Under the pieces are notes generated by a model, which was given only the letters and a program-made list of their open reading frames with translations, made no database searches and was not told the DNA's origin. The position numbers and the translations under genes were made by a program. 64,000 nt of DNA, from the NCBI GenBank assembly GCA_937928775.1, contig CALFVI010000007.1, positions 1-64,000 on the forward strand, given 5' to 3'. The stretch is from an uncultured Elioraea sp. Its GTDB lineage: Bacteria; Pseudomonadota; Alphaproteobacteria; Acetobacterales; Acetobacteraceae. Numbering within the stretch: the first letter of the stretch is position 1; each line of letters begins with the position of its first letter. Below, piece after piece: positions 4,857 to 64,000 of the stretch.

Positions 4857-4916
4857 CGAAACCCATGTTACGTTTGGTGGCGGGTCGCGCCGAGACAGAC
4901 CGAGGATGATCGTGGC

Positions 4917-6860: not shown

Positions 6861-7081
6861 ACGCCCCTCGGCCGATCGCTTTCTGTGCGCGTGGCCGACA
6901 GGCCCGGGCGGGATTGGGTAGGGTCCTGCGGCTGAAGGGGCAAAGACGCCTCTTGGCGCGGTGCGGTAGGCCAGCGATAAAGCGGCCGCCAAGTGTGGGG
7001 TGCCGAACCTCGCGCGACGTGCCGCGAAGGCCTTCCCGCTGACCGGCGCGTCTCCTTTTGGGTCCGCAGGAGCCTTTGCCA

Positions 7082-8458
7082 ATGCCGTCCGACACGCGTC
7101 GTCTGTTCGGAACTGACGGGGTGCGCGGAAGGGCGAACGCTCCGCCAATGCGGCCGGAAACCGCTCTGCGCCTCGGCCAGGCCGCCGGCGCCCTGTTCCG
7201 CCGCAGCGGGGCCGGGCACCGGTCGCGCGTTGTCATCGGCAAGGACACGCGCCTCTCCGGCTACATGATCGAAAATGCGCTCGCCGCCGGGTTTATTTCG
7301 GTGGGCATGGATGTGAACCTGGTCGGCCCCTTGCCCACACCCGCTATCGCCTGGCTCACCCGCTCCATGCGGGCCGATCTTGGGGTGATGATCTCGGCCT
7401 CGCACAATCCGTTCGAAGACAACGGCATCAAGCTGTTCGGTCCTGATGGCTGGAAGCTCTCGGACGCGATGGAAGCCGAAATCGAGCAGCTGATGATGGA
7501 TGCTGCGATCGAGTCCCACCTTGCCGCGCCGGCCGAGTTGGGTCGCGCCGTCAGGCTCGAGGATGCGCGCGGGCGCTACATCGAGGCGGCGAAATCGTCG
7601 TTTCCCCGAAACCTTCGCCTCGATGGGCTGCGCATCGTCATCGACTGCGCACATGGTGCCGCTTATCGCGTCGCCCCTCTGGTGCTCGCCGAACTCGGTG
7701 CGGAGGTGATCACGCTCGGCGTCGCGCCCGATGGGGTGAACATCAATCGCGACTGCGGCTCCACCGTCCCTGAGCACATGAGGAGCGAGGTGGTGGCCAA
7801 CGGCGCCGATCTCGGGCTTGCGCTGGATGGGGATGCGGACCGCTTGATCCTTGCTGATGAGACGGGACGGATTGTTGATGGCGATCAGGTGCTCGCCCTG
7901 ATCGCCGATGCCTGGTTGCGCTGCGGGCGGCTGGCCGGTGGCGGCGTGGCGGCCACCGTGATGAGCAATATGGGGCTCGAGCGCTTCCTCGCCGAGCGGG
8001 GGCTTGTGCTCGAACGAACGGCTGTCGGCGACCGTTACGTCGCCGAGCGCATGCGCGCGAAGGGGATGAATGTGGGTGGCGAGCAGTCGGGCCACATGAT
8101 TCTGACCGACTACGCGACGACCGGTGACGGGCTGATCGCCGCGCTGCAGGTGCTGGCCGTCATTGTCGAGACCGGGCGCCCAGCCTCCGAAGTGTGCCGC
8201 CAGTTCGAACCCTTGCCGCAACGGTTGCGGAACATCCGCCACGATGGGCGCCTCGATCTCGGCCACCCACACATCGCGCGCGCGATCGCCGAGGCCGAAG
8301 CTCGGCTGGCCGGACGGGGGCGTCTGCTGATCCGCCGTTCAGGCACAGAGCCTGTCGTCCGTGTGATGGCCGAGGCGACCGAGGAGAGTCTCGTTTCGGA
8401 GGTGGTAGATTTCGTTGCGGAGGCGATCCACTCGGCCATCGCCGAGGTGGTGAGCTGA
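7082..8458 (+). CDS. glmM: Phosphoglucosamine mutase GlmM
   Basis: [33 protein letters not shown] motifs. Confidence 0.97.
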
Positions 8459-9279
8459 TGAAGGGCAGGGTGCTAATCATCGCCGGATCCGACTCCGGGG
8501 GTGGGGCGGGGATCCAGGCCGACATCAAGGCTGTTACCTGCCTCGATGCTTTCGCCATGACGGCCGTCACCGCCCTCACCGCGCAGAACACGCAAGGTGT
8601 TGCCAACGTGCTGCCCGTGCCGCCGGCCTTCATTCGCGAACAGATCGACGTCGTCGTCTCCGACCTCGGCGTGGATGCTGTGAAGACCGGCATGCTGCAC
8701 GACGTGCCGGTGATCGAGGCTGTGGCGGAAGCGATTGCGGCGCTCGACCCGGCCATGCCAGTGGTAGTCGATCCGGTGATGGTGGCGAAAGGCGGGCAAA
8801 GGCTGTTGGCGCAGAACGCGGTTTCCGCCCTAATCCGCCTGATGATCCCGCGCGCGACGGTGATCACCCCCAATGTTCCGGAGGCGGAAGTGTTGGCCGG
8901 CTCAGCCATCCTCTCCGTTGACGACATGAAGAGGGTGGCGGAGCGTCTCCTCTCCTTGGGCTGTAACGCCGTGCTCATGAAGGGTGGGCACCTGCCAGGG
9001 GAGAGAGTGACCGACCTCCTCGTGACAGCAGACGGCATGGAAACCTTCTCCGGCCCGCGCATCGACACGCGCCACACCCACGGCACCGGATGCACCCTGG
9101 CCTCGGCAATTGCAGCGGGGCTCGCGCAGGGGAAGGGCTTGCACGAGTCCGTCATTCGTGCCCGTCACTACGTCGCACTCGCGCTCGCCTCGGCCCCCGG
9201 CTACGGTCATGGGCACGGGCCACTTAATCACGCGGTCACCGTCGATCCCGCCCGGCTCGCCGCGTTGTCTTGCGCCTAG
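8458..9279 (+). CDS. thiD: Hydroxymethylpyrimidine/phosphomethylpyrimidine kinase
   Basis: IAGSDSGGGAGIQADIKA...; GTGCTLASAIAA. Confidence 0.95.
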   Translation: MKGRVLIIAGSDSGGGAGIQADIKAVTCLDAFAMTAVTALTAQNTQGVANVLPVPPAFIREQIDVVVSDLGVDAVKTGMLHDVPVIEAVAEAIAALDPAMPVVVDPVMVAKGGQRLLAQNAVSALIRLMIPRATVITPNVPEAEVLAGSAILSVDDMKRVAERLLSLGCNAVLMKGGHLPGERVTDLLVTADGMETFSGPRIDTRHTHGTGCTLASAIAAGLAQGKGLHESVIRARHYVALALASAPGYGHGHGPLNHAVTVDPARLAALSCA

Positions 9280-9379
9280 AGCAGCTTCTACATGAGTGCA
9301 AACCGCCCTGTCCTTATCCTGCGTGCATCGTCACGCACGCGGCTGAATTGATCCGTCTTCGATCTGCCCTCGGTCGCGC

Positions 9380-10230
9380 GCCGCCCCACCGCGGCAAACG
9401 CGGCCAAAACGACCGTGAACACAGCGAGCGCGCCTGCCGCTGGCACGGGGACGAGCTACGTGCGCCCGATGAACAGCCTGTCGCCCCACAGGGCCAAGTT
9501 TGTCGCCTGGATCAGGCCGCTCGTGCCCGTGTCGTTGTACGGCGGCATGATCACGGGCCTGGTGCGCTTCGGCAGGATCACGATCTGCATCGTCACCACG
9601 GATTCGCTCGCGAGCAGGAGCACGTCCTCGAAGGTCCGCAACTGCCGTGCCCTCTCCACCGAAGAGAGGCCCTAGCCCTCGATGAAGAAGTCGCGTCGAA
9701 GCGCCGGGCAAAAGGTCGATTGCGGCAAGCAGGCTGCCGCGGGCGATGGTTGGCACGCCGAAGCTTGCGAAGGTGATCCACCTCGCGGAGATGCGCGGGA
9801 ACGCCTAGGTCGCCTCATCGCTGACCGTAACGGCGAACGTGCTCGTCGCGAAATCGCCGGCTAACCGTTTTGCACTAGCTTGCATGTCGACCGTCTGGCA
9901 CATCGTCACGGGCGTCGGTAGCACGCCCTCTGGCCAAGCATCTTCCACGGTTGCGACCCAGTTCTCCTTGCCGGTGCAGCCGAAGCCGAAGGCGGGCGCG
10001 CAATCATTCCTATCGAAGCCGCCAAAGCTCTTGTAGGCCGATACGCCCCAAGGCGCGAAACCGACGGCCCTCTCGTAATCCGAGATACCTTGCGGTGCCG
10101 GAACCGGGAATCCGCTGCTGCCACCTTGCACGGCGACCGTAGTCTCGAAGCTGTTGTTCCGCAGGATGTTGGCCTGCGCTGCCGCCGGTGCGAGGAGCAA
10201 GGCGGCGCTGAAGGCGAGCGTACGGGACAT
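9380..10230 (-). pseudogene. Decayed PEP-CTERM-type exported protein
   Basis: Signal peptide and ANILRNNSFE N-terminus in one frame; body fragments (PPYNDTGTSGLIQATNLALWGDRLFIGRT*) and C-terminal VPVPAAGALAVFTVVLAAFAAVGRRA separated by frame changes and stops. Confidence 0.65.
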
Positions 10231-10350
10231 GCAACGCTTGGTCGTCTCGCCTGTCAGTCTCGACCGTCCGGCGCACGGCACCTTGCGCGATCACGGTGCC
10301 ATCGTGTCGATCTGCCGATACAACGTTGGCTAGCCGGAACAGGAGCATGG

Positions 10351-10515
10351 TGATGTCTTGCCTTCCCCTGATTGTCATGGCTGGCTTCGCCGACCGGCCC
10401 TTCGCCGGCAATCCGGAAGCAGTCGTGCGGTTCGAGGCCTGGTTGCCGCACACTGTGCTGCAAGGCATCGCTGCCGAGCACCCTCTTAGCGAGGCCGCCT
10501 TCGTGGTCCCCGAAC
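10351..10515 (+). pseudogene. PhzF-family (phenazine biosynthesis-like isomerase) N-terminal relic
   Basis: MAGFADRPFAGNPEAVVRFEAWLPHTVLQGIAAEHPLSEAAFVVPE matches the PhzF N-terminal signature; the rest of the protein is absent. Confidence 0.7.
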
Positions 10516-10696
10516 TGGCGGCTCCGCGTCCGCGCAGGCTCACGCGTCCTTCTAGACGAACGCCGCGCCTGAGCGCGGCGGGCGAGATCGCGCGGGTGAC
10601 GCGCGGCGTGCTTGCGGCCGTTCGACAGGGCGGCTATAGCCCGTGGCGGGTCACGCCCCCCCACCGGGGCGCATCGCTTCTGCAAGGGAGCTTGCC

Positions 10697-11890
10697 ATGG
10701 CGAACAGTGCTACGCCGCCCGCGCGGCCATCTCTCCGTCCTGCCAATCCGCGTTTCTCTTCCGGTCCCACCGCGAAACGGCCTGGCTGGTCGCTTGCCGC
10801 CCTTGAGGGCGCACTGGTCGGCCGGTCGCACCGCGCGAAGGAGGCGAAAGCGCGGCTTGCCGAGGTGATCGCACGCTCGAAACGGATTCTCGGTCTGCCG
10901 GAGGATTGGCGCCTTGGCATCGTTCCAGGTTCCGACACAGGGGCGATCGAGATGGCGATGTGGACCCTGCTCGGCGCGCGCCCTGTCGACGTGATCGCCT
11001 TCGAATCCTTCGGCGAGGCCTGGGCTGTGGATGTCGCGAAGCAGCTCAATGTCGAGCATCGCATCCTTTCAGCCCCGTACGGCAGGTTGCCGGATCTGAG
11101 AGCCGTCGACTGGACCCATGATGTCGTGTTTTGCTGGAACGGCACCACCTCCGGGGTGCGCATCCCGGATGGGGACTGGATCGCGCCCGACCGCGCGGGG
11201 CTTGCAATTTGCGACGCCACCTCGGCCGTGTTCGCGATGGCGCTGCCGTACGATCGGCTCGATGTGATCACCTGGTCCTGGCAGAAGGTGCTGGGCGGTG
11301 AGGCAGCGCACGGCATGCTGGCGCTCTCTCCGCGCGCGGTGGATCGACTTCTTTCACACAAGCCCGCCTGGCCGCTGCCGAAGATCTTCCGCCTTGTTTC
11401 TGGTGGCAATCTCATCGAGGGCATCTTCAAGGGTGAGACGATCAACACGCCCTCCATGCTCTGCGTGGAGGATGCGCTCGATGGACTCGCCTGGGCGGAC
11501 TCGATCGGTGGCTTGCCCGAGCTGATCCGCCGATCGGAGGCGAACCTCGCCGCGGTCGCGCGTTGGATCGAAACAACACCGAACTACGCCTTCCTTGCCG
11601 AGGATCCCCGCACGCGGTCCTCGACTTCGATCTGCCTTTCCATCGTCGCTTCCTGGTTCATCGCCCTTCCCGCGGAGAGACAGGCCGAGGCGGCGAAGGC
11701 AATCGCTGCACTTCTGGAGGCGGAGGGTGTGGCGCTTGACGCGGGCGGCTATCGCGACGCGCCGCCGGGGCTGAGGCTCTGGGGCGGGGCGACGGTGGAG
11801 ACCGCCGACATTGAGGCAGCTCTCCCTTGGCTTGATTGGGCTGCAGAAACGGTCGCGCTGCGTTTCGCAACCGTGCCGGCCGGGAAGTGA
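10697..11890 (+). CDS. serC: Phosphoserine transaminase
   Basis: [18 protein letters not shown]..., [17 protein letters not shown]-lysine region; adjacent to serA. Confidence 0.93.
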
Positions 11891-11894
11891 GTCC

Positions 11895-13481
11895 ATGCCA
11901 AAGGTTCTCATCTCCGATAAGCTCTCGCCCGCGGCGGTCGACATCTTTCGCAGCCGGGGCATTGAGGTTGACGTCAGGACCGGGCTTTCGCCGGCGGAGT
12001 TACGGGCCGTCATCGCCGACTATGACGGGCTTGCTGTCCGCTCCTCGACCAAGGTGACGGCGGAGCTCCTTGCCGCGGCGAGAAATCTCAAGGTGGTTGG
12101 TCGTGCCGGTGTTGGCGTTGACAATGTCGACGTGAAGGCCGCTACCGCCCGCGGCGTGGTGGTGATGAACACGCCGCACGGCAATGCCATCACCACCGCC
12201 GAGCACGCGATTGCCCTGATGTTCGCGCTCGCCCGGCAGATCCCGGAGGCCTCTCTTTCCACTAAGGCCGGCAAGTGGGAGAAGAACCGCTTCCTGGGCG
12301 TCGAGCTCTATGGCAAGACGCTTGGCATCATCGGCTGCGGGAATATCGGCTCCATCGTCGCCGACCGTGCGCTCGGCTTGAAGATGAAGGTGATCGCCTA
12401 TGATCCATTCCTCTCCGATCAACGGGCGGTCGCGCTCGGCGTAGAGAAGGTTGATCTGCACGATCTGTTCGCGCGGGCCGACATCATCACCCTGCATGCG
12501 CCGCTGACGGAAGGCACTCGCCACATCATCGATGCGCGCGCAATCGCGCAGATGAAGCGCGGTGTGCGCATCATCAACTGTGCGCGTGGCGGGCTGATCG
12601 TCGAGAAGGATCTTTACGACGCACTCGTCTCCGGCCATGTCGCCGGTGCGGCGCTCGACGTGTTCGAGACCGAGCCGGCAACCGAAAGCCCATTGTTCCG
12701 GCTAGAGAACGTTGTCTGCACGCCGCATCTCGGTGCCTCGACGAAGGAGGCGCAGGAGAACGTGGCACTCCAGATTGCCGAGCAGATGAGCGATTTCCTG
12801 CTGACGGGGGCGGTGACGAATGCGATCAACATGCCCTCTGTCTCGGCCGAGGACGCGCCACGGCTTAAGCCTTACATGGAGCTTGCGCGACTGCTGGGCG
12901 CGTTCGCCGGCCAGCTTTCGGCCGCGCGTGACCGTGGGTTTCGCGCTGTCGCAATCGAATACGAGGGCCTTGTGGCGGCATTGAACCACACTCCGCTGAC
13001 TGCGGCGGCACTCGCTGGACTGCTCGGCCCCTTGATGGAGGGTGTAAACATGGTGAACGCGCCGGTGATCGCGCGCGAGCGCGGCATCGATCTCACCGAG
13101 ACAGTGCACGATCGGCCATCCGAGTATCAGACCCTGATCCGGATCGCGGTAACGACCGATCGCGACACGCGAACCGTTGCCGGTACTCTGATCGCGGGTT
13201 CCCGTCCGCGTCTGATCGAGATCAAGGGCATTCCGGTGGAGGCCGACTTCTCGCGCCATATGCTGTACGTGACAAACGAGGACAAGCCGGGCTTCATTGG
13301 TCGGTTCGGGACCACGCTCGCGGAAGCCGGTGTGAACATCGCGACCATGCATCTCGGTCGCACTGCGCCGGGAGGGGACGCGATTTGCCTAGTTTCCGTC
13401 GATGAGCCGGTGCCGGCGGAGGTGCTCGAACGCGTGCGCGCGTTGCCGCTGGTGAAACAGGCGACCCTGCTGTCGTTTTGA
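11895..13481 (+). CDS. serA: Phosphoglycerate dehydrogenase
   Basis: D-2-hydroxyacid DH motifs (GIIGCGNIGSIVADRALGLKMKVIAYDPF), C-terminal ACT domain. Confidence 0.96.
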   Translation: MPKVLISDKLSPAAVDIFRSRGIEVDVRTGLSPAELRAVIADYDGLAVRSSTKVTAELLAAARNLKVVGRAGVGVDNVDVKAATARGVVVMNTPHGNAITTAEHAIALMFALARQIPEASLSTKAGKWEKNRFLGVELYGKTLGIIGCGNIGSIVADRALGLKMKVIAYDPFLSDQRAVALGVEKVDLHDLFARADIITLHAPLTEGTRHIIDARAIAQMKRGVRIINCARGGLIVEKDLYDALVSGHVAGAALDVFETEPATESPLFRLENVVCTPHLGASTKEAQENVALQIAEQMSDFLLTGAVTNAINMPSVSAEDAPRLKPYMELARLLGAFAGQLSAARDRGFRAVAIEYEGLVAALNHTPLTAAALAGLLGPLMEGVNMVNAPVIARERGIDLTETVHDRPSEYQTLIRIAVTTDRDTRTVAGTLIAGSRPRLIEIKGIPVEADFSRHMLYVTNEDKPGFIGRFGTTLAEAGVNIATMHLGRTAPGGDAICLVSVDEPVPAEVLERVRALPLVKQATLLSF

Positions 13482-13514
13482 CCGTCTCGACCCGCGCGGC
13501 CCATGGCCGTGGCA

Positions 13515-13623
13515 AGGCGCCTTCAGGGCCGGGCTGTGCGCATCGAAGCAGAACATTTCTGCAGGGGGATGAAAATCGAGCCACATGGCGCCGTCAGGGC
13601 CGGACTATGCGCAGCGAAGCCGA
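13515..13623. repeat. Imperfect direct repeat (~37 bp unit, two copies ~69 bp apart)
   Basis: GGCGCCTTCAGGGCCGGGCTGTGCGCATCGAAGCAGAA versus GGCGCCGTCAGGGCCGGACTATGCGCAGCGAAGCCGAA. Confidence 0.6.
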
Positions 13624-14463
13624 ATGCGCCGCGATGCGCTGGGCCTCCGCAACAACGGCTTCCGCAGCAAGGACGTAGACGTCGTCGGTAAGCACCGGTC
13701 GGACCGGATGCGCGTCGTAACGCCCGGCGACGGGCAGGCGGCGAATGGCGATGATCATGCCCGCGAGTTTGCCCGATGTGTCCATTACGGGGCCGCCTGA
13801 AAACCCCGGCACCGTGCCCGGCAAGGTCGCGACGAAACCCGGGCCAAGTCGCGGCACATGGACCGTGCGTCCTGTCGCCTCACCGAAAACGTTTCGGGGC
13901 ACGGCGATGAGCGGGTCGCGCGCCGGAACCGACCCGAACGCATGCAGGCGCATGCCGGGTGGAGGCGTGGGTAGCGGCGTGGCCACCACTCGCCTTTCTT
14001 GGCCCATGATCTCCTGACCCAGGGTGGGAAGAAAGCCAGAGGGAATTTCGAGAACAGCGAGATCCATCGTCGAACTGACACCCACCAGCCGCGCTGCGAT
14101 GGTGGGGCCTCCCGGTGGGCCGCGCCGAAGCATGACGCGATCGCCGTTCGCAATGCCCTCGACGACATGGGCGGCTGTGACCGCGAGCCCGGGCGCGATC
14201 TGGAAGGCCGACCCGACAAGGCGCCGCGTGATGACCGTGGCGTGGAGCGGGAGGTGCGCTGTCGTGACAAGCGCTTGGGTCCCGCCAGCGACTGGGGGCG
14301 ACCCATTCGCGGCCGGGGTGGCGGTGAAACCCTCCCTCGGCGCAGCCTGCGTTTCCGCAACAGATGCAGCGGCCATGCAGACCAGGAGGGGAAGCAGGAG
14401 AGCTCGTACGCCCGACGGCCAAATCTGCCACAGTATGCGCGCGACGACGGCGAGCCCTCTCAA
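13594..14463 (-). CDS. Trypsin-like serine protease (secreted)
   Basis: VTAAHVV, DLAVLEI, PGFSGGPVMDTSGKLAGMI catalytic signatures. Confidence 0.85.
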   Translation of the reverse strand: MRGLAVVARILWQIWPSGVRALLLPLLVCMAAASVAETQAAPREGFTATPAANGSPPVAGGTQALVTTAHLPLHATVITRRLVGSAFQIAPGLAVTAAHVVEGIANGDRVMLRRGPPGGPTIAARLVGVSSTMDLAVLEIPSGFLPTLGQEIMGQERRVVATPLPTPPPGMRLHAFGSVPARDPLIAVPRNVFGEATGRTVHVPRLGPGFVATLPGTVPGFSGGPVMDTSGKLAGMIIAIRRLPVAGRYDAHPVRPVLTDDVYVLAAEAVVAEAQRIAAHSASLRIVRP

Positions 14464-51569: not shown

Positions 51570-52034
51570 CTATCGGACCAGGAACAACGCCTCAACCTCT
51601 GCGACAGCGTCCGCCGGCAGCGAGGCCACACCGATGGTGGTGCGCGTGTGCCGGCCGGCCTCGCCGAACAGTTCAACGCAGAGATCGGAAGCCCCGTTCA
51701 TCGCAAGTGCGTGCTGGGTGAAATCCGGCGTGCAGGCGATGAAGCCACCGAGGCGGACGACACGCGCGATGCGGTCGAGATCGCCGCCGCAGGCTGCCTT
51801 TGCCTGGGCAAGCACGTTGAGAAAAGCGATGCGGCAGGCCTCGCGCCCTTGGTCGATAGTCACGCCAGCGCCGAGTTTGCCACTGATCGCAACTTGGCCA
51901 TGGCGCATAGGCAGCTGACCGGAGACGAAAAGGAGGTTGCCTGCCATCATGAACGGAACGTAGTTGGCGACCGGCAGTGCCGGCTCCGGTACGTGCAGCC
52001 CCAGGGCTTCGAGACGGGCCTCGATCGATGCCAT
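51570..52034 (-). CDS. RidA family protein
   Basis: GNLLFVSGQLP...RIVRLGGFIACTPDFTQHALAMNGASDLCVELFGEAGRHTRTTIGVASLP. Confidence 0.93.
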   Translation of the reverse strand: MASIEARLEALGLHVPEPALPVANYVPFMMAGNLLFVSGQLPMRHGQVAISGKLGAGVTIDQGREACRIAFLNVLAQAKAACGGDLDRIARVVRLGGFIACTPDFTQHALAMNGASDLCVELFGEAGRHTRTTIGVASLPADAVAEVEALFLVR

Positions 52035-52232
52035 GCCAGGTGTCCTTCCTTCGCGATCCGAGTTTGCCCTCACTGCCGACAGATGACGTGTCAGGAACGC
52101 CCTGTCGAGGCAGTTCCTCGATCGCACCTCCTGTTCGCGTACGCCACGTCCGCCTGAGCCCAAGCCGCGGCCACAGCTCGGCGTACCATGCGGCGTGCAA
52201 CAGGGCAGCAGCATCGGCTGATGCCCGCCCGG

Positions 52233-53003
52233 TCAGGCAAGCCTGCGCGTCTGCAGGGTCGCTGCCGCGACGAGGCCGGCGACCATCACCACAACAAGTG
52301 CAGGCATCGTGTACAACCACCAGCCGAGTCCGAGCATGGCAAATCCGTTCGCGATCATTTGTCCCCAAGAGGTGGCAGCCGGATCACCAAGCCCGACAAA
52401 GGCCAGTGCCGCCTCGGCGAGTATCGCGCCGCCGAACACGATGCCCGAGGACGCCGCCAGCGTAGATACGAGCACTGGCAGAACATGACGCCGAACAATC
52501 GCGGCAGGCGAGACGCCAAGGGCGACCGCCGCGCGCAGAGAGGGCTGCGCGCAGACTGTGATCGTCTCGATGCGAACGAGGCGAGCAATCACCGGCCAGC
52601 CCGTCAGCCCAATATCCAGGGCAAGTGCCAGAGTTGATCCGCCGAACAGGCTTGCCACGAGGATCGCAAGCAGAAGGGTGGAAAGACTGGCCACGATTTC
52701 GGTCGCGCGCATGACGATCTCCTCCAGCAACGGCGGCGCCAGCCCGGCGACCAAACCGACGATGAGCCCGACGTCGAACGCGGCCGACGTTGCGATTTGG
52801 CCAACCGTGAGCGAGGCCCGCCCGCCTTGCAGGACCGCAGCGAGCAGGTCGCGGCCGAGATCGTCGGTGCCAAAGGGATGCAAGGCGGAAGGCGGAAGCA
52901 GAGGTGTGCCGAGTGGCAGGTGGTCAAGGACCCCCGCAGGGGCAAACAGCAGACACGCAAGGGAGAGCACGGCAAGAAGCCCAGCGGCAACACCGCGCAT
53001 CAT
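52233..53003 (-). CDS. ABC transporter permease, dipeptide/oligopeptide (DppC/OppC) type
   Basis: HPFGTDDLGRDLLAAVLQGGRASL; EAALAFVGLGDPAATSWGQMI. Confidence 0.88.
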   Translation of the reverse strand: MMRGVAAGLLAVLSLACLLFAPAGVLDHLPLGTPLLPPSALHPFGTDDLGRDLLAAVLQGGRASLTVGQIATSAAFDVGLIVGLVAGLAPPLLEEIVMRATEIVASLSTLLLAILVASLFGGSTLALALDIGLTGWPVIARLVRIETITVCAQPSLRAAVALGVSPAAIVRRHVLPVLVSTLAASSGIVFGGAILAEAALAFVGLGDPAATSWGQMIANGFAMLGLGWWLYTMPALVVVMVAGLVAAATLQTRRLA

Positions 53004-53004
53004 C

Positions 53005-53383
53005 GCAGGTTCAGCCTCGGCTCAAGCAGAACGGAAGCGGCGTTGCCCGTCAGATCGGCAGGCGAGGCGGCTTCGAAGGTCAGGAATGCCGTCGATGCCA
53101 GTCATTCCAGCCACACCCGCATGACAAAGGCCTGTTCCCAACGTGCGGCTACGGTCATACCGATCAGACGGCGCGCCACCCAAAATGCCTTGCCCTCTCC
53201 TGAGGGGCGATCGAGCTCATGCGGCGCGGCGTGATCCTCCGTCTGGCCCTCTGCCGCACGCTCGCCGGTCACTGCGACGGCTGCGCTTCCCGATTCATTC
53301 CAGGAGCGGACGAAGAGGATGGTTCCGGCAACGGAGAAGGCGAGGACAGCGAGGACGGCTCGGCGCAACAGGAAGGGCAGCAT
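53005..53383 (-). pseudogene. DppB/OppB permease relic with central deletion
   Basis: N-terminal MLPFLLRRAVLAVLAFSVAGTILFV and C-terminal ASVLLEPRLNLR* abutting OppC start; the central TM region is missing. Confidence 0.6.
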
Positions 53384-53412
53384 TGGGCAATCCGTTTCGC
53401 GTGACACCGGTG

Positions 53413-54960
53413 TCATCGCGGGCGGTGTCGTTTCTCCGCCACTTCGCCGCTCCATGGGGCGAAGCCGACGAACGCGTCACGCCACGCGGCAAGGAAACTA
53501 GTCTCCACGAGCCACCAATACGGAAGATCATGGGCAAGGATTGCTTGCGCCTCGCGATAGGCGTCGCCGCGTTCAGCCTCGTCCAGCAGCGATGCCGCGC
53601 GATCGAAGAGCGCATCAACAGCGTGGCTTCGGTAACCGGCCGCGTGTGAGAATGGCACATTGCCGATCGTGGAGGAATGAACCGTGCGATGGACACCAAT
53701 CTCCTGATCCGTGCCTTAGCAATAGGAGATGAGGGTGAGGTCGAAGTCACGGCGAGTGAAGACCGTCTGGCTCAGCAGGGCTCGGTCGATAATCCGCGGC
53801 CGAAGGACGATCCCGAGAGGGGCGAGCTGAGCGCGCATCAGTTCGCTCTACCCGCGCGAAGGCTGGGAGATGGACGATGTCGAGCGTCACTCGAACGCCG
53901 TCCTGTCCCCGTCTGAAACCGGCTGCTTCGAGCCTGCACGCCGCCTTGGCCGAATCGTGCGGCCAGATGGCGAGTGCGCCGGGCGCATGCGCCCACGGGA
54001 TCCCGGAGGCAATTTGTGCGTCCGGCACACGCCCTGCGCCGAACGCAAGACGGTCGAGGAACTATGCGCGGTCAAGCCCGAGGCCGAAGGCCTCGCGCAG
54101 GGCGAAGTGATCCGTGATTGGCCGATCAAGATTGAAGCCGGTTATCATGGCGCAGTTCGATCCGCCAGGTGCAGCGCGCGTCTCGACAATGGTGACACTG
54201 CGGTTCCGAAGGCGTGCGGCGTCGGGAGGGGCAATGCGGCTCACCATGTCGACTTCACCAGCAACCGGTGCATTCACCTGTGCCGCCGCATCCGGAATGA
54301 TCCGGAACACGATGCGGTCGAGCCTCGGCAGCCCTCTTAGGTCTTGTTGCGTACTAGCACAACTTGGTCATCACGACGCCAGGACACGAACCGAAACGGG
54401 CTGGTACCGATCGGACGCAGATTCGCCGGGGTGTTGGTCGGATCGCAGCCAGCGAACAGATGCGCGGGCTGAATCGGCGCTTCGGTCACCGAGAGCTAGC
54501 GGAGGAGGGCGGGGTGCCGTCGCTTCACACGGAACGTCACAGTATGAGGGTCAACGATATCGACAGTGGAGACCGCTGTAGCCAAGCCGGCGCGCGCACG
54601 GGGATGGAAGCGAAAGAGGAGATCCTGGAATGTGACCTTCACAGCCTCGGCCGTGAACGGCTGGCCATCGTGCCAGAGAACTCCTCGCCTGAGGTGAAAC
54701 GTCATGCTCTGCCCGTCGCCGCTTGCCTCCCAAGCCTCCGCGAGATCGGGTGATGGTGAACCAGACTCGTCGATTTCGACGATACCGTTCTACATCGATC
54801 CGGCGACGGCATGAATAGGGCCCGCCGTCGATATGGCAGGGTTGAGGAGGCCGGGATCGCCCGAAACCGCGATCACTGCAGAGCCTCCGGACGAAAACGC
54901 AGACTATGGCCAGAAGGCGACAGCGATGGTCACCGTCAGTGCAGTGAATCGCAACGTCAT
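53413..54960 (-). pseudogene. Peptide ABC transporter substrate-binding protein (SBP family 5) pseudogene
   Basis: [73 protein letters not shown]...; stops at 54904-54906 and 54790-54792, further frame changes, C-terminal DLPYWWLVETSFLAAWRDAFVGFAPW. Confidence 0.85.
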
Positions 54961-56190
54961 ATGCCTCTCCTCCCCTGCAACGGTGGACGAATAGCGGAGT
55001 GGTATGAAAAAGACGAAAAATCAGCATAACAATCTCGAGGCGTTCGGTGATGGCACTCGGGTAGAGTGTGGCGGTCGAGAAGAGGCGCAAAGCAGGCCTC
55101 TGCGACAGGCACGGTGGACTGAGCGATCAGTGATGAGCACGGCTTCAAGACCAGAGCAGTGACGCGAGCGTGGCAGAACAAGGGTGCCTAACAGAGCGGC
55201 TTGATGGAAAGGCGGCGACCCTCGAGGGGGTGGCGTGCGAGCGGCGGCTGAAACGGTGCGCGACCGACACGGCCACCGGCAACAGACCTTGGCAAACCGA
55301 ACGCCTATGGAGAGCCCGCGTATCACATCCGGGCGCGGAGGGCAGCCCGGCTATTCTCTTTGTTGCGCAGGTAATGGCCCTTCGTGCAGAGGGTTCAGCG
55401 CGTACGCTGCTGCCGGCGCAGGGACCCCAAGTCTCGCCAATGGCATCGGTCAGGCTGCGCCTGCCTCATCCCGAAGCCGTTGGCCAACGACTGATTTGGC
55501 ACAGTCATGCCTCCAAATCCACTGTCAGGCGCGCTGCCAGCGGCACCTTCTTTGTCCGGCAGTCGTTGCTCGAAACACTCAACATCGACAGCGAGACGCT
55601 TAATCATGTGCAGGACGGGGAGTGCCGAGACCGTTACGGTAAAAAAAGGACGGAGAAGCAACATAGGCGGCAAGCAACCTAGACTGCCCACACGTCGGGA
55701 GGCACCATGCCTTGGGAGTCGCCTGCCGCATGGCAAGCCGTCAGAGGCACATCAGCGGTGCTTCGGGCAAGAGTGCGCGACAGGTCAACACACGCCAGAC
55801 ACCGCTTGGCTTTGTCACGCTGAGTCGACAAGATGTTTCGCCCGCATCCATAGCGTGCCTCAAGCTGGCGATGGAAGTGGAACAGTCTCACGCCGAGAGT
55901 GATCGGAGATATAGCCTGCTTGAGCCCGATTGAGGGCCTCGGCAGGCGATCTATGCCGAGTGGGGTCTTGCAACCAGCCTGTGTTGGTTTCGTGATCGAG
56001 ACTTAGCTCGCTCGATGCGATCGTATCGATGCTTTGTTGACAGTGTGCCATCAACGCCGTGCCGCGTGCTCAAGCGGCGCCGTGCTAGGGCGGATTGTTG
56101 GATGCTCGAGCAGGCTAAATTGTCTTGCCGAGCTTCTCGCGCCTTGGACCTCGGTCATGAGAACAGCGATGAACCCTTGGGGGAAATAGG

Positions 56191-57729
56191 ATGGACTTCC
56201 ATGGCTGCCGAGCGAAACCTGTTCGAGTTCAGCCGCTGGAGCGGGTCGGTGAAGATGCTGTGCTCTATGTTTCTGAAGGCACGACGGTGGTCATCGGCGC
56301 CAGGGCTAGCGACGTCGCTGAGCTTCGCTCTCTGGCGGCTGACCGCACCGTCATCGTTGCCAATGGTCATGCTGTCGGACAGCCTGAGGCATTGAGGCCA
56401 GCGCAATGGCGCGCGGAATGCGTGCGGGCAGTAGAAGGCTGGCTCGGTGCCTTCCGAGTGCACTGGCACGGATCAGACGACGTGACACATGCGGACGTGG
56501 TGATCGACCTTACAGCTGAACCGCTGATTAGGCATGAGGTCGCTCCGTTCGGCTACGTGCGTCCAACGAATGGGGACCGGGCGGCTGCTTTCGCTGAGGC
56601 CGCCGCATGGAAAGGGTGTTTCCGCAAGCCGCGGTATTTCACATATCTTCCCGAAATTTGCGCGCACGAAAGTTTCGGCCTGACAGCATGTTCGCGCTGC
56701 CTGGACGTGTGCGCCGCTGAGGCAATTCGATCCGGCGGCACCGTAATCGTCGTCGATCCGCATCTATGTCAGGGATGTGGAAGTTGCTCCTTGGCTTGTC
56801 CGACTGGCGCGCTCAGCGTCGCTGCCCCCTCTCGCGCAGACCTTTTGTCCAGTGTCCGCCAGGCACTCGCCGAAACCCGCAGCGATCGTCCAGTTGTCCG
56901 CGTGGTCGAGGTAGCGACTGTCGAGAAGAGCTACACGACTACAAGAGAAAATGCGGTGGAGATAGCTGTACCGGCTCTCGCCGCGTTCGGGGAGGAGCTC
57001 TGGTTTGCGGCTCTCGCCGCGGGCGCAGGAGCGATCATCCTTCAGCCATCACGCAGCTTGCCGAACAAATCGTTGCAGCTCCTCATGCAACGCGTCTCGG
57101 TTGCCAACACGATCATGCAAGCTTTCAGGCAGGGAGAACCCGCTATTCGGGTAGCGTCTGCCGGTGGGGAGCACAACGAGGCATGGCACCTTCCGGCAGT
57201 TCAGCCCAGTCGCGCAAACTCTTTGCCGCCAGACCAGCCTCTGCTGAAACGTGTGGTGCTGAATGAGGCACTCGACGTCCTTTGCCGATCTGGTGATGCG
57301 CCGGTTGCCTTGCCTGAGGGAGCAACGTTCGGCTCTATCGATGTCGAGCGTGAGCGCTGCGTGCTCTGTTCGTCCTGCGCGCGCGTGTGCCCGACGGCGA
57401 CCATCCGGTATGCGGAGGACACGCGCTGGGCGAGACTCTTCTTTCATGAGGCGAATTGCATTCAATGTGGGGCGTGTGCTCGTATCTGTCCGACAGGTGC
57501 GATAACCCTTTCGCCGCGTATCGCGCCCCCCGATGAGAGATCCGGATGGCGCGAGGTTCAGGCGGACCCGATCGCGTTCTGTCCGTCCTGCGGCAAGCCA
57601 GTCATGCCGTCACGTTTGCGCATGTGGTTGCAGGAACGCGCAAGGCAACTGGGTGCCGACTCTGCAATCGTGGCTAATACTGCGCTCTGCAGCGTTTGTC
57701 GGCAGTCGGCAGGCGTGGCCTACGACTGA
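56191..57729 (+). CDS. 4Fe-4S polyferredoxin-type protein
   Basis: CSRCLDVCAAEAI, CQGCGSCSLACPTGAL, CVLCSSCARVCPTATI, CIQCGACARICPTGAI plus CPSCG and CSVC pairs. Confidence 0.85.
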   Translation: MDFHGCRAKPVRVQPLERVGEDAVLYVSEGTTVVIGARASDVAELRSLAADRTVIVANGHAVGQPEALRPAQWRAECVRAVEGWLGAFRVHWHGSDDVTHADVVIDLTAEPLIRHEVAPFGYVRPTNGDRAAAFAEAAAWKGCFRKPRYFTYLPEICAHESFGLTACSRCLDVCAAEAIRSGGTVIVVDPHLCQGCGSCSLACPTGALSVAAPSRADLLSSVRQALAETRSDRPVVRVVEVATVEKSYTTTRENAVEIAVPALAAFGEELWFAALAAGAGAIILQPSRSLPNKSLQLLMQRVSVANTIMQAFRQGEPAIRVASAGGEHNEAWHLPAVQPSRANSLPPDQPLLKRVVLNEALDVLCRSGDAPVALPEGATFGSIDVERERCVLCSSCARVCPTATIRYAEDTRWARLFFHEANCIQCGACARICPTGAITLSPRIAPPDERSGWREVQADPIAFCPSCGKPVMPSRLRMWLQERARQLGADSAIVANTALCSVCRQSAGVAYD

Positions 57730-57803
57730 GTTATGTTGCACGCGCAGCGTAAATTTGCGCGCGCAATTGCCTTTCAAGTCATGTCTGCCTGTTCGCACTC
57801 GGC

Positions 57804-58526
57804 TCAACGTCGGCCGCACCACGCGGCATCGGTGCGGGCGATGACCAACGCATCGGCGAGGTCACAGACAGACGCGTAGAAATGCGACCGGTCGGCAGCT
57901 GCAGCGCGCAGCAGATTAAGGAAGCGCGGCAGCCAGGGCTGCAGAAATGTTTCCCAGACGAACGCTTCGCTGATTGTTGGGTGGTGGTCACCTTGGGCGC
58001 TTCTGAACGCCAGCACGTAGAGGAGCTCGAAGAGATACGCCACGTGGTCTGGCGGTTCGGGCCAGCCCTCGGCCGGTGTGAGGCCCATTTGGGCAAAAGT
58101 ATCGCGAATGGGGTCGGCGCAGGGGCCGCCGATGCGTTGTTCGGGATCGAGATAGAAGGATGCCCAAGGTGGCGCAAGCACTCCGAAGGGTCCGACAAAC
58201 AGGGCCGTGTGCGCGCGGAGGTGCGCCTCAAGATCGCCTTGGTGCAAGGCTGCTATCATCCCGTACCCGGCACGCTGAAACGGCTCGGAGAGGTGGCCGG
58301 TCGCCAGTTCGATCAGCGATGAAAACCTGTCGGGCCAACGCTGCGGCGGGCCAAAGGCGTGCGCCAGCACAAAGTAGAGATTGGCCCGAACCACCGCGGA
58401 GGAGAGCGCGTCGACGCCGCTGACCCCTGCGTTGCCCGCCTGGATGCCGTCAAGTGGGATGACGCTGGGCCCGGCGCTTGTCGAGAGCGCGTGGTCCGGC
58501 GTCAGCTTCGCTCCAACCGACACCAC
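57804..58526 (-). CDS. TorD/DmsD-family molybdoenzyme chaperone
   Basis: LYFVLAHAFGPPQRW...HTALFVGPFGVLAPPWASFYLDPEQRIGGPCADPIRDTF; operon context; start uncertain (GTG proposed). Confidence 0.82.
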   Translation of the reverse strand: MVSVGAKLTPDHALSTSAGPSVIPLDGIQAGNAGVSGVDALSSAVVRANLYFVLAHAFGPPQRWPDRFSSLIELATGHLSEPFQRAGYGMIAALHQGDLEAHLRAHTALFVGPFGVLAPPWASFYLDPEQRIGGPCADPIRDTFAQMGLTPAEGWPEPPDHVAYLFELLYVLAFRSAQGDHHPTISEAFVWETFLQPWLPRFLNLLRAAAADRSHFYASVCDLADALVIARTDAAWCGRR

Positions 58527-58587
58527 TGGCTGGTCTGCCTTTGAGCTGCGGAGGCCTTCGCAGCCGGGGTCTGCGCCGGCGCGCGCT

Positions 58588-59289
58588 TCAGGCCTTCCCG
58601 TACTCACGGATGTAGAACACGTGTGGCTGTGTTCCCTTATCACGCTGGAGCACGCGCGGGCGATGCCGCGCGAGAGCCTTCGCTGGTTTGCTTTCCGGAT
58701 CGTTGAGATCGCCGAACAGCCGAGCATCGGCAGGGCAAGCGGTCACGCAGGCCGGATCTTCCCCAACGGCAACCTTGTGATCGCAGAAGGTGCATTTCTC
58801 GACGACACCTCGCGGGCGCACCCCGGCGTAGGTCGTCGCTCGCGCGGGATTGTAGTAGGGCAACGGCGCCTGCACCCGCTCAGCCATTTCCCGTCCCGAG
58901 AATGTCGCGCCGGGGATGGCGGCTTGGCTATCGCGATAGTTTGCGTGTGGGGTGTCCTTGTTGAAGAAGATCACACCATAAGGGCAGGCCAGCTGGCACA
59001 GGCGGCAGCCGATGCATTTGTTCGCGTCGTGCAGCGTCATGCCATTTTCGGCCTTGTACATGGCCGTGGTCGGACAATTGGTGACACAGGGCGCGTTCTC
59101 GCAATGATTGCACAACGTCGGGATATACCTGAACGTCGTGTTCGGAAACGTGCCGCGCGTCTCCACGATGTGATTCGACCAATGGAACTCGACCGGCACA
59201 TTATTCTCCGCCTTGCATGCGATGTCGCAGGCGGCGCAACCGACGCACCGGTGCAGGTCGATTACCATCGCGTAGCGTTTCTTGGCCAT
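58588..59289 (-). CDS. 4Fe-4S dicluster electron-transfer subunit of molybdoenzyme (ArrB/DmsB-like)
   Basis: CVGCAACDIACKAENNVP, CNHCENAPCVTNCPTTAM, CIGCRLCQLACPYGV, CTFCDHKVAVGEDPACVTACPADA. Confidence 0.93.
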   Translation of the reverse strand: MAKKRYAMVIDLHRCVGCAACDIACKAENNVPVEFHWSNHIVETRGTFPNTTFRYIPTLCNHCENAPCVTNCPTTAMYKAENGMTLHDANKCIGCRLCQLACPYGVIFFNKDTPHANYRDSQAAIPGATFSGREMAERVQAPLPYYNPARATTYAGVRPRGVVEKCTFCDHKVAVGEDPACVTACPADARLFGDLNDPESKPAKALARHRPRVLQRDKGTQPHVFYIREYGKA

Positions 59290-59315
59290 CGCTCGCGCTC
59301 CTTTGTGCGATTTTG

Positions 59316-61964
59316 TCAAACGCGCTCGACACGTACGCGGGTCAACCCGCCGTGTCGTGCCGTCGAACCACTCAGCCGTTCGTAGTCCGAAACATGCAGC
59401 TCATTGTTGTTTCCACCGCGCGGCAGGCGTCGGGCGAAGTCCTTTGCTGCGACGCGCCCGTAGGCCCAGTGCCCCTGACCATAGCATTTGGCAACCGTGC
59501 CAGGCCGAACACCTTCCCAAGCCTTCAGGCGAACCACGATCGATCCCTGAAGTGAGGTCACCCGCACGAGATCGCCGTTGCGCAGACCGAGCCGCGCAAC
59601 GTCGGCCGGGTTCATCTTCAGAACGTCGTCCCAGTTTTCGTCTCCCGGATCGCAGTTCTTGTGCGCCTGATACCACGTGCAGTTCTGCGAACGGCCTTCG
59701 CGGTTTAGCCGGGACCGGTGCTCGAAGAAGATGAACGGAAACTCTCGCGGATCACCATGCCGAAAGGCAGGCTCGAAATGCGGAACGAACGCAAGCTCGC
59801 CGCGGGCGACGTATTTCGTGGCCTCCATGACGTCGTCGACGGTCACCTTGTGCTTCGCCGCATGCTCCTCCAGTGCTTTCTTCAAGGTGCTGCTGTAGAA
59901 TTCAAACTTCTTGGTCACCGTTGGGAAGCGGTCAACGCGCTGGCCATAAGTAAAGCGTTTAGAATTCCACACGCCTTTGCGAACGAATGCCTCCCACCCG
60001 TCGATTGCATCCCCATACTTACCCCAGTTGGGATCGGTCTTGTCCCAACATGCTCGGGTTGATGCCTTCAAATGGTAGAGGGTGAACTCCTGGGCGTTCG
60101 TCGGCGCCTGGCCGGTTTCGGGGTCCTTGAACATCTCCTTGAAGTAGCGGAGTGGCTTGTCAAAGCCGCGTTCGGCAAGCTTCTCCGCAAGCAGCCAGGG
60201 CACCTCCGTCTCCTCGTTACGCACATCCGCAACAGGCTTGATCACTGGCACGTTCAAGGTCGTATAGCTGTGCAGGTTCTGCTTGTTGTTGACGTAGCCC
60301 CAGCGTTCGAACATCTGATGCGGGGCTGGCAGGACGATGTCGGCGAACATCGTTGTTTCCGAGGCGTTGGTCGTGATGTGCACGAGGAAAGGAAGTTTGC
60401 TCAGCGCCTCTTCCCAACGCTGTGCGCCGGTGCAGGAGAATGCGAAGTTAGACCAATAGGCGATGATCAGTTTGAGATCGTAGGGGTCATTGGCAAGCAT
60501 GGCGTCGGCGACGCGGTTCGTCACCACGCCGCTGCCAGGACGCCCGGACGCCATGGCCGGAAATTCAAGTCGGCCCCGCTGGTCGATCTTCGGATACTTC
60601 AGCCCCTCTTTCGCGATGTCGTCGAGATATGCATCGTGGGCTGGCGCGCCTCGCGTCACGGTTGGTGCATGAGTGACGACGCCACCACGTGCATCGACCG
60701 ACCCGACGAGACCATTCAGTGCGTGCGCCGCCATTGCAGCGTAGGCGCCGCGCACCTGCATGCAGGCGCCAGGTGACAGCCAGCTGATGGCGCGCGAACC
60801 CGCTGCGGCGAAATCGAGTGCGACACGACGGATCTGCGCGGCAGGAATGCCGCAGATCGGCTCTGCCCACTCGGGTGTCCGATCCTTCAGTTCAAGGTTC
60901 CACCAGGCAAGCAGCCCATGGGTGTGCTTTTCAGCGAATATCGGAACCGGGACAGCGTCGCTGGCCCCATTGGTTGCGGTTGCACCTGCAGCGGAGGCGA
61001 GTGTCTGCAGTGGTTCGATCTCCCGCCCAGGGACAAAGCGGTTCTTGCCGTCAACAAAGTCGCCGACGAAAGACTTGTTCCAGGCACCCTCGACAAGAAT
61101 GACGTGCGCGATGGCAAGGGCCAGCGCGCCATCTTCACCGGGAATGACGGGAAGCCACTCGTCTGCCTTGGCAGCGGTCGCTGACAGCCGCGGGTCGATA
61201 ACGGCGATTTTTGCCCGGTCGCGTACTCCGCCCCAGAAGTTGATCGCGTGTGGCACCATGCGGTTCGAGGCGAGCGGATCCGTACCCCAGCAGAGGATGT
61301 ATCGTGCCTCCTCGAGGTCGTAGTCGCGATAGTTCCAATACCCTTCTGTGTAGAACGAACCAAACTTTTCGGCCTCTGCACAGATGGAAGAATGGCTGAT
61401 ATTATTGGGAGACCCAAGTAGCTTGGTGAACTTGTCGTATAGGATATCATTCAAATTTGTATAACGACCTCGAAGCACGGCGTATTTATGGATCTCGCCG
61501 CTGCGCCGAAGCTCCATGATGCGGTCCGCGATTGTAGCCATGGCCTCGTCCCAGGAGATCGGAACGAAACCGGGATCTTCGTTGCGCCCCTTTTTCGGAT
61601 TGGTTCGCTTCAGCGGCTGGCGTACCCGATCGGGGTCATAAACCTGCTGCAGAGCAAGATGCGGTCGCGGGCAAATCTTCCCATGGTTGCCCTTCGCTTC
61701 CGGGTTGCCGCGAAGATGAATCGCTCGCCCGTCAACGACGCGCACCTGCACCGAGCACCAGCTCGTGCAACCTTGGCAGGTGGTTGCAACCCACGTCCCA
61801 AGTGGAGAAGGCTTCGCCGCATGCGCCTGGGCCGGCGCGAGCAGGCTCAGCGCAGGCAAACCATTCGCCGAGGCAATAAGCGCAGCACCGGCAGTCTGCA
61901 ACACGGACCGACGCGATGCATCCACAGCCGGCTTCATGTCGGCGATCATCGGAATGGCGGTCAT
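59316..61964 (-). CDS. Tat-exported molybdopterin oxidoreductase catalytic subunit, ArrA/ArxA-like (respiratory arsenate reductase / anaerobic arsenite oxidase family)
   Basis: Tat signal SRRSVLQTAGAAL; CQGCTSWC 4Fe-4S site; RGRYTNLNDILYDKFTKLLGSPNNISHSSICAEAEKFGSFYTEGYWNYRDYD; WNLELKDRTPEWAE; FFEHRSRLNREGRSQNCTWYQ. Confidence 0.8.
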   Translation of the reverse strand: MTAIPMIADMKPAVDASRRSVLQTAGAALIASANGLPALSLLAPAQAHAAKPSPLGTWVATTCQGCTSWCSVQVRVVDGRAIHLRGNPEAKGNHGKICPRPHLALQQVYDPDRVRQPLKRTNPKKGRNEDPGFVPISWDEAMATIADRIMELRRSGEIHKYAVLRGRYTNLNDILYDKFTKLLGSPNNISHSSICAEAEKFGSFYTEGYWNYRDYDLEEARYILCWGTDPLASNRMVPHAINFWGGVRDRAKIAVIDPRLSATAAKADEWLPVIPGEDGALALAIAHVILVEGAWNKSFVGDFVDGKNRFVPGREIEPLQTLASAAGATATNGASDAVPVPIFAEKHTHGLLAWWNLELKDRTPEWAEPICGIPAAQIRRVALDFAAAGSRAISWLSPGACMQVRGAYAAMAAHALNGLVGSVDARGGVVTHAPTVTRGAPAHDAYLDDIAKEGLKYPKIDQRGRLEFPAMASGRPGSGVVTNRVADAMLANDPYDLKLIIAYWSNFAFSCTGAQRWEEALSKLPFLVHITTNASETTMFADIVLPAPHQMFERWGYVNNKQNLHSYTTLNVPVIKPVADVRNEETEVPWLLAEKLAERGFDKPLRYFKEMFKDPETGQAPTNAQEFTLYHLKASTRACWDKTDPNWGKYGDAIDGWEAFVRKGVWNSKRFTYGQRVDRFPTVTKKFEFYSSTLKKALEEHAAKHKVTVDDVMEATKYVARGELAFVPHFEPAFRHGDPREFPFIFFEHRSRLNREGRSQNCTWYQAHKNCDPGDENWDDVLKMNPADVARLGLRNGDLVRVTSLQGSIVVRLKAWEGVRPGTVAKCYGQGHWAYGRVAAKDFARRLPRGGNNNELHVSDYERLSGSTARHGGLTRVRVERV

Positions 61965-61977
61965 GGATCGTGATCCT

Positions 61978-62937
61978 TCAGGACAGCGTTGCCATCACGG
62001 AAAGAGGAGTTGGGAGCTGGCCGCCAATCACGGCAGCGTAACGGATGGTGAAGCCGCCAGCGAGCAACAGCAGGCAGGCAATCGCCACTAGGCCGGCGGG
62101 CGGCGTCCGACCTGCCCCAAAGCGCGGTAGCAGCAAAATCCCGACGACGATCGGGACCAGCAGGCCAAACCCGATGCCGAAAACAGCCAGGATAACGCCG
62201 TATTCAGAGAGCATCGCCTGCAGTGCCAGACGGGCAGGCAAGGGCCCAAAGCGCAAATCGACAAACCACGCGAACAGCGTCACGAGGAGGAGTGCAGCAG
62301 CCGCAATCAGCACCAAGGCAACGGGCTTGAGGCCCTGAGCGAAAACGTCCGACGGGCCAGCTTCCAACCGAACAAAGGCCCGCAGCAAGAGATACACAAG
62401 CAAGGAAGCAGCGACTCCGGTGATAGTGAAGAGCAACACCGAGGTAACGATCATCGGGCCCGAGGCCCAAAGTGGGTGCGAGGTCAGAACCGCGAGCAAC
62501 AAACCATGGTAGATTCCCACCGCAACGGCGAACGGGACACCCAGAACACCTGCAACGGACGCGCTGAGAACCCGGGGCAGGCTGACGTGCGGGAAGAGCA
62601 AGCGGAAGGCGAAAAGGGCGGACAAGGCGACGAAGGCGCCTTGGATGATGGCACCCCACCACATCACGGATGTGGGCGACACGTTAAGGATCAGCTGATA
62701 GACGTTGAGCTTATTGCCAAGCTTCCAGAACAGAAGGCCAAGGCCCGCTGCAACGGAGACTGGTGCAATCGTGGCTGCGACTTTGACCAGGGGCAGGTAG
62801 CGCTCCTCCGCGAAGCGCCACAGCAGGAAGGCGAATAGGAACGCGCCGACGCCCACGCCTCCGAGAAAGAGGTCTCCGACCACGCGCTCGTCCCAGATCA
62901 AACCTCGTTGCAAAGTCAGTATGAGCTCCGTGTCCAT
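61978..62937 (-). CDS. NrfD/PsrC-type quinone-interacting membrane anchor
   Basis: Multi-TM NrfD-like (WDERVVGDLFLGGVGVGAFLFAFLLWRFAEE); first gene of molybdoenzyme operon. Confidence 0.88.
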   Translation of the reverse strand: MDTELILTLQRGLIWDERVVGDLFLGGVGVGAFLFAFLLWRFAEERYLPLVKVAATIAPVSVAAGLGLLFWKLGNKLNVYQLILNVSPTSVMWWGAIIQGAFVALSALFAFRLLFPHVSLPRVLSASVAGVLGVPFAVAVGIYHGLLLAVLTSHPLWASGPMIVTSVLLFTITGVAASLLVYLLLRAFVRLEAGPSDVFAQGLKPVALVLIAAAALLLVTLFAWFVDLRFGPLPARLALQAMLSEYGVILAVFGIGFGLLVPIVVGILLLPRFGAGRTPPAGLVAIACLLLLAGGFTIRYAAVIGGQLPTPLSVMATLS

Positions 62938-63072
62938 CTCCGACCTCCGAGGCTACCACGCGCAAGACCGTCGTTAGATGTCCCGGTCGGGGCAGCTCTT
63001 CCCGACCTTCGCGGACGCGCGGTGTTTCGCTCAGCTTCGCCACCACTCTTCCGCGAGCCTCTCGCTGCCGCA

Positions 63073-63086
63073 TTGCGCTAGATCAA
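63073..63086. promoter_or_regulatory. Candidate FNR/CRP-type site TTGCGCTAGATCAA upstream of the molybdoenzyme operon
   Basis: TTGNN-CTAG-ATCAA partial palindrome, 136 bp upstream of the NrfD start. Confidence 0.4.
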
Positions 63087-64000
63087 CTCGACGTGAGGCG
63101 GCCTTTGTCTCGAGGTGAGATCAGTCATCGCCACGCTGATCTTCGGTAGATGAGTGGCTTGCAGCCGACGCGCACACTGGGATGTGAGCAACGGTGCACG
63201 GGGGCGGCGGTGCGGCCGGCTCCAACCTCTGCCGGCAGCGCAAGGCATGACATGCGCACGCGCGCTAACGCTGAGTGCCGCATGTCCAACACCAGTGCTG
63301 TGAAATGCGCGATGGCGCCCCCCAATCGTGACCAAAAGGCCGAGCTGTTGCCGGCGGTGAGCCCGATACCCTAGTTGGCGATAGATACTTGCGCGCGTCA
63401 CTGACGCTCCGTTCCGAGTCTGTCACTGTACGTCACTCGGTGTTTTTCCGCGCCACGCACCTGATTGCTGCACGGGCTCCCGCCAAGAAAGCAGAAAAAG
63501 CCGAGCCAATTTCACTGCGCGGGGCGCGGCTTAGCGTGCGACGTCGTGGCGTGGGACAGGCGGCGACGACTGAGGCGAGCAAACCGTAAGTGTTGGCAAG
63601 CGCCTCGACGCGGACAGCACCCAGCGGGTGGTGTCGAGGTTCGCCTTGTCGTCGCGGTGCGGTCGTAGAAACCGCCGATCAATGCAGGCTTTCCGGCCAG
63701 CTTGGGCCAAGGGTGATGCCGCCGATCCAACCGACTACGCCAGACGAATTTGCCCCGCGTCCGGCTGGATGATCACCACCACCTACCGCGTCACCACGTT
63801 AGCAACGGACTATCGCCCTGCTCCAGCGGAGGGTGGACGCATTGCCGCGGTCGAGTCGAAGCACACGTCATTGATCGGGCCGAGACCCGAATGATGCCTG
63901 CACGGAGTATCGGACACGTACGAAACCGCCGGGCCGATCAGTGATGGCAAACTTTATGAGCGCCTCGCGTGCATCGGGGGTTCCTGACGTTGGCGATCTT

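Follow-up and report, generated by a model that had tools for sequence, protein, structure and literature searches.

The window (the whole 64,000-nucleotide stretch analyzed, from contig CALFVI010000007.1 of an uncultured Elioraea sp.) carries a gene set, arrCABD, whose sequence features are of the Arr type and not of the Arx type. We lean toward the view that arrCABD specifies an Arr-family respiratory arsenate reductase whose physiological direction is As(V) reduction, and we consider it very probable that the enzyme handles arsenic. The Arr family is known; its setting here, in an Elioraea host that is apparently ubiquinone-only, is new. A search of the open-access literature did not turn up any description of genes for arsenic respiration in Elioraea, although such a description may exist.

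Gene content of the arr locus

The following features were identified.

61978 to 62937, minus strand: arrC, NrfD/PsrC-type membrane anchor of 319 aa, presumed to be the quinone-reactive subunit (Pfam NrfD, 2.4e-25; same position in the arr operons of Halomonas, Planctomycetota, and Firmicutes)
59316 to 61964, minus strand: arrA, molybdopterin catalytic subunit of 882 aa, predicted to be Tat exported, with RGRY at residues 165 to 168 (NCBIfam ArrA, 1119.8 bits over the full length; PDB 6cz7, E 1e-291)
58588 to 59319, minus strand: arrB, ferredoxin subunit of 243 aa with 16 Cys for four [4Fe-4S] clusters (NCBIfam ArrB, 1.6e-95)
57804 to 58727, minus strand: arrD, TorD-family chaperone (Pfam Nitrate_red_del, 6.2e-19)
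56191 to 57729, plus strand: polyferredoxin of 512 aa with 24 Cys, convergent to the arr operon (Fer4 domains, Pfam)
51989 to 64000, no strand: part within the window of an inserted segment that carries the arr module and a permease gene and has no recognizable genes in parts of its length (comparison with the unoccupied G001 site)

A preliminary description of this DNA had proposed a four-gene minus-strand operon encoding an NrfD protein, a catalytic subunit, a 4Fe-4S subunit, and a TorD protein. All four genes were recovered at that place and on that strand, and Pfam analysis agreed, with NrfD, molybdopterin, MGD-binding, Fe4S4, Fer4, and Nitrate_red_del/TorD matches. The Tat signal and the CxxCxxxC site that it had reported in the catalytic subunit were located to an RR motif at residues 18 and 19 and to the CxxCxxxC...C site for a [4Fe-4S] cluster formed by C63, C66, C70, and C98. 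ArrB contains 16 Cys in a pattern that matches other ArrB proteins and fits four [4Fe-4S] clusters. The arrB and arrA reading frames overlap by 4 nt. In its listed form, the TorD open reading frame shares 140 nt with arrB, indicating that the true arrD start is probably downstream of position 58588, candidate GTG start codons being present at 58526 and 58394. Scans for promoters, terminators, and tandem repeats returned nothing useful. The operon was found in three of seven Elioraea genomes, and the two other copies display an identical gene order and 94 to 95% identity, with dN/dS ratios of 0.05 to 0.06 among the three copies and no stops. This recurrence shows that the operon did not arise from a fortuitous reading of the sequence, and the ratios indicate strong purifying selection in Elioraea.

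The catalytic subunit belongs to the ArrA family

The motif (R/K)GRY has been proposed to identify ArrA proteins, and the motif XGRGWG to identify ArxA proteins (PMC6549141). The Elioraea protein contains R165, G166, R167, and Y168 near the pocket. RGRY was present in every ArrA-side row of our alignment and GRGWG in all (5/5) of the Arx rows; XGRGWG is absent from the Elioraea protein. In a tree of 31 proteins, the Arr and Arx clades each received 100/100 support and the Elioraea protein was located inside Arr, a larger tree likewise placing it within ArrA. Its identity to ArrA proteins outside the genus is 51 to 68%, versus approximately 35 to 39% to ArxA. These results sharpen the preliminary assignment of the subunit as ArrA/ArxA-like to ArrA.

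Comparison with profile models led to the same placement. The Elioraea protein matched the NCBIfam ArrA model NF041714 end to end with 1119.8 bits, which is below the cut-off of this model (1600 bits). Among the ArrA proteins checked, only the Shewanella-like ArrA clears that cut-off (1742 bits), unlike the proteins from Elioraea, Desulfoluna (1290.6 bits), and Mesobacillus selenatarsenatis SF-1 (1120.5 bits), the last of which we take to be an arsenate respirer. The cut-off is therefore narrower than the ArrA family. ArxA proteins score 438 to 442 bits with the ArrA model, and the next-best NCBIfam family for the Elioraea protein was PhsA (257 bits), TtrA giving 88 bits. The best solved structure was that of Shewanella ArrA (6cz7), and the pocket residues that we checked are those of Shewanella ArrA and of the ArrA of named arsenate respirers. 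The phylogeny and HMM comparison suggested in the preliminary description thus gave a position within the ArrA clade and no placement with PhsA/PsrA or Ttr.

The published order of arr genes is CAB or AB (PMC2500031), and arxABC was conserved in all the arx genomes of another study (PMC6549141). Among the loci that we fetched, those of Planctomycetota, Firmicutes, and Halomonas commonly showed the order NrfD-ArrA-ArrB-TorD. The C-A-B-D order of Elioraea was correctly said to differ from that of arx operons, but it is not the peculiarity that it had been taken for: it fits arr CAB, does not fit arxABC, and is evidence for Arr. Together, the motif, gene order, and tree rule out an Arx identity, and a PsrA, PhsA, or TtrA identity is ruled out by the scores and by the order CAB, which is neither ABC nor BCA.

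Comparison with known systems

The Elioraea locus shares with the ArrCAB(D) systems of M. selenatarsenatis, Desulfosporosinus, Tepidibacillus, and others the gene order, full-length homology, the RGRY motif, the cluster cysteines, the type of anchor, and TorD, but it differs from them in that its ArrA has an insert (residues ~315 to 341), its ArrC is divergent, and its polyferredoxin partner is distinct. The hosts of those systems are menaquinone users. In Desulfosporosinus sp. UBA8487, two arrCAB loci were observed on different contigs. The ArrAB complex of Shewanella sp. ANA-3 (PDB 6cz7) is similar in the full-length ArrA sequence, the motif, and the cluster residues, although this strain has no ArrC and relies on CymA instead (PMC2500031), whereas Elioraea has ArrC. 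The ArxB2ABCD systems of Alkalilimnicola and of the Cereibacter ORIO plasmid belong to the same superfamily and have in common with Elioraea an NrfD anchor, TorD, and a ubiquinone-type host; they differ by the XGRGWG motif, the B2-A-B-C-D order, the low identity reported above, and their separate clade.

The closest ArrA outside Elioraea was that of Halomonas llamarensis (68% identity), a bacterium whose main quinone is Q9 and for which no anaerobic growth was observed (PMC10291192). The two lineages were sisters in the ArrA tree (98/98) and in the ArrC tree (100/99). They share the ArrA insert, which none of 78 other ArrA and five ArxA proteins possesses, and two substitutions in ArrC, P76 to K (P in 30 of 30 other anchors) and Q/E217 to L (Q or E in 28 of 30). 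They also share the polyferredoxin (319 bits), a homologue of which is conserved in both other arr-carrying Elioraea genomes (G004 and G005) and in the H. llamarensis locus (L018), and a ubiquinone-based host. The Halomonas gene (L018, positions 3986 to 5929, plus strand) is located upstream of the arr genes on the same strand and encodes a TatB-like N-terminal region (53 bits versus a cut-off of 56.5), whereas the Elioraea gene is convergent. The TatB-like region hints that Fe-S loading may be connected to Tat export. A further homologue of the polyferredoxin (137 bits) was detected in another member of the Pseudomonadota (L115, positions 11797 to 13332, in genome G312), a few kilobases from an Arx operon. 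Because only two lineages are concerned, the insert, the ArrC changes, and the polyferredoxin suggest, but do not show, an adaptation to ubiquinone. Searching ArrC against solved structures by sequence gave no match on which the substitutions could be placed relative to a quinone site. We do not claim accelerated evolution of the anchor, since the sister stem has an ArrC/ArrA stem-length ratio similar to that of the ubiquinone branch.

Proposed function and the quinone pool

According to the reading that we favor, ArrA would be exported together with ArrB to the periplasm by the Tat system, and arsenate would be reduced at the molybdenum center of ArrA by electrons that ArrC, in the membrane, takes from the quinone pool and that pass through the four clusters of ArrB. 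TorD, and probably also the polyferredoxin, would serve in assembly. With ubiquinone apparently the only quinone of the host, the reaction would have to run near equilibrium with ubiquinol, probably providing an accessory electron sink at low oxygen.

The nature of the quinone pool raises a difficulty. Menaquinone, at approximately -70 mV, has been argued to give arsenate reduction a driving force that quinones at approximately +100 mV do not provide; only menaquinone is held to give a real driving force, nearly all Arr carriers use it, and a ubiquinone-using arr carrier has been cited as unable to respire arsenate (PMC2500031). Likewise, menaquinone has been assigned to Arr and ubiquinone to the arsenite-oxidizing Arx, in a study that lists arrAB carriers without any Alphaproteobacteria (PMC5908839). 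The host genus, Elioraea, comprises aerobic anoxygenic phototrophs. Its described members are anoxygenic phototrophs containing ubiquinone-10, and anaerobic growth on nitrate was not seen for the aerobic anoxygenic phototroph E. tepida (PMC8781829). In the seven Elioraea genomes, three of which are at least 98% complete, MqnA and MqnD were absent and all the MenD matches were below the cut-off, most likely corresponding to other thiamine-diphosphate enzymes. The pool of Elioraea is thus apparently ubiquinone-only. The host departs in this respect from menaquinone use, which accompanies Arr in the literature but does not define the protein, and both As(V) reduction and As(III) oxidation consequently have to be considered.

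It is possible, if somewhat doubtful, that this Arr-type enzyme operates in reverse, oxidizing arsenite and delivering electrons to ubiquinone for cbb3 respiration or photosynthetic flow, which is the job of Arx. The quinone pool, the driving force available only from menaquinone, and the published assignment of ubiquinone coupling to Arx all point in this direction. So do two features of the host: two photosynthetic reaction-centre genes were present in seven of seven Elioraea genomes searched, and ccoN, ccoO, and ccoG were found in the window, bearing out the earlier depiction of a cbb3-bearing lineage. The sister ArrA belongs to the ubiquinone-9-containing Halomonas without observed anaerobic growth, and the two ArrC residues changed in the pair are conserved elsewhere. 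However, the active-site motif and the phylogeny are those of ArrA throughout, none of the checked pocket residues shows a change that marks the Elioraea and Halomonas pair, and the ArrC changes come from two independent lineages only. A broader proposal, which we advance tentatively, is that the Arr of Elioraea and H. llamarensis might form a ubiquinone-adapted branch acting as an arsenite oxidase or bidirectional valve in aerobic or phototrophic cells, in which case the quinone and the anchor, rather than the catalytic motif, would determine the direction.

Arr is assumed to go with menaquinone and an anaerobic host, and Arx with ubiquinone as an oxidase; the presence of a genuine ArrA in aerobic phototrophs that are apparently ubiquinone-only breaks this pairing. 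The Elioraea enzyme is thus a natural test of whether the enzyme, the anchor, or the quinone pool decides the direction of the reaction. Such an ArrA would moreover place Alphaproteobacteria and hot-spring phototrophs among the organisms potentially mobilizing or trapping arsenic.

We regard it as unlikely that the protein is an ArrA relative acting mainly on a different substrate (antimonate, a thioarsenate, or selenate, for example): at an identity of 51 to 68% the sequence alone cannot settle the substrate, but the checked pocket residues match those of ArrA from Shewanella and from the named arsenate respirers.

Genomic context and acquisition of the operon

The genome is an incomplete metagenome-assembled genome (MAG) and the segment surrounding the operon has stretches without recognizable genes, as might be expected of a contaminant or of a decaying relic without function in Elioraea, but contamination is ruled out by the collinearity of both flanks with the Elioraea chromosome of G001 (83 to 89% identity) and by recurrence in three genomes, and the dN/dS ratios and intact frames reported above make a relic highly improbable.

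The interval between aat and a TRAP permease gene spans approximately 4 kb in the near-complete genome G001 and approximately 14 kb in G005, in which the arr module lies in between. Alignment of the contig of the window (C7) to G001 similarly left an unmatched stretch at approximately 51989 to 66384, versus 1.6 kb in G001. The GC content of the inserted segment is 0.62, versus 0.673 before it, and GC3 is 0.63 to 0.74 for the arr-module genes and 0.82 for four neighbors outside the insertion. The open reading frames flanking the arr module mostly lack domains. Gene decay seems to have affected positions 51673 to 56190 of the window, where a single permease open reading frame retains a recognizable domain; the matching region of G004 encodes permeases as well as a family-5 solute-binding protein.

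A copy of the operon with 95% identity is carried by contig CALBEG010000018.1 (30963 bases; C18 of G004), from another MAG of an uncultured Elioraea sp. Among 386 sampled genomes of the host class, there was no further match at the ArrA level, three weaker matches being 35 to 43% identical. Horizontal acquisition of the arr module, followed by its maintenance by selection in some Elioraea, best explains these observations. The simplest reading is a gain in the ancestor of the three carriers and purifying selection thereafter, although the absence of arr from G001 may be a loss. A tRNA-targeted integrative element was rejected, as ARAGORN detected no tRNA near the site and ten scanned open reading frames contained no transposase or integrase domain. 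Plasmid carriage was also rejected, PLSDB returning only an Arx match, and none for the polyferredoxin.

Other arsenic-related genes

The preliminary description had reported that neither ars genes nor arr regulators were visible. We likewise recognized no ars or arrXSR regulator gene adjoining the operon. The absence of ars genes holds for the window but not for the genome, since contig C70 (positions 9884 to 14216, minus strand) carries an ars operon encoding an ArsR-ArsC fusion, an ArsJ-associated GAPDH, ArsJ, and Acr3. The ArsC part of the fusion is of the low-molecular-weight-phosphatase type and scores below the NCBIfam arsC cut-off (68 versus 174 bits), so that its ArsC activity is putative. 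The four genes fit exposure of the host to arsenic.

The Elioraea MAG G004, which has an estimated contamination of 3%, contains both Arr and Arx, the latter encoded by an arxB2-A-B-C-D operon (contig C257, positions 4012 to 10507, minus strand). Its ArxA displays the sequence YGRGWG and is sister to ArxA of the Cereibacter azotoformans ORIO plasmid. Another DMSO-family enzyme encoded by G004 (contig C32, positions 4530 to 7091) is nearest to PhsA-type models, with scores far below the cut-off.
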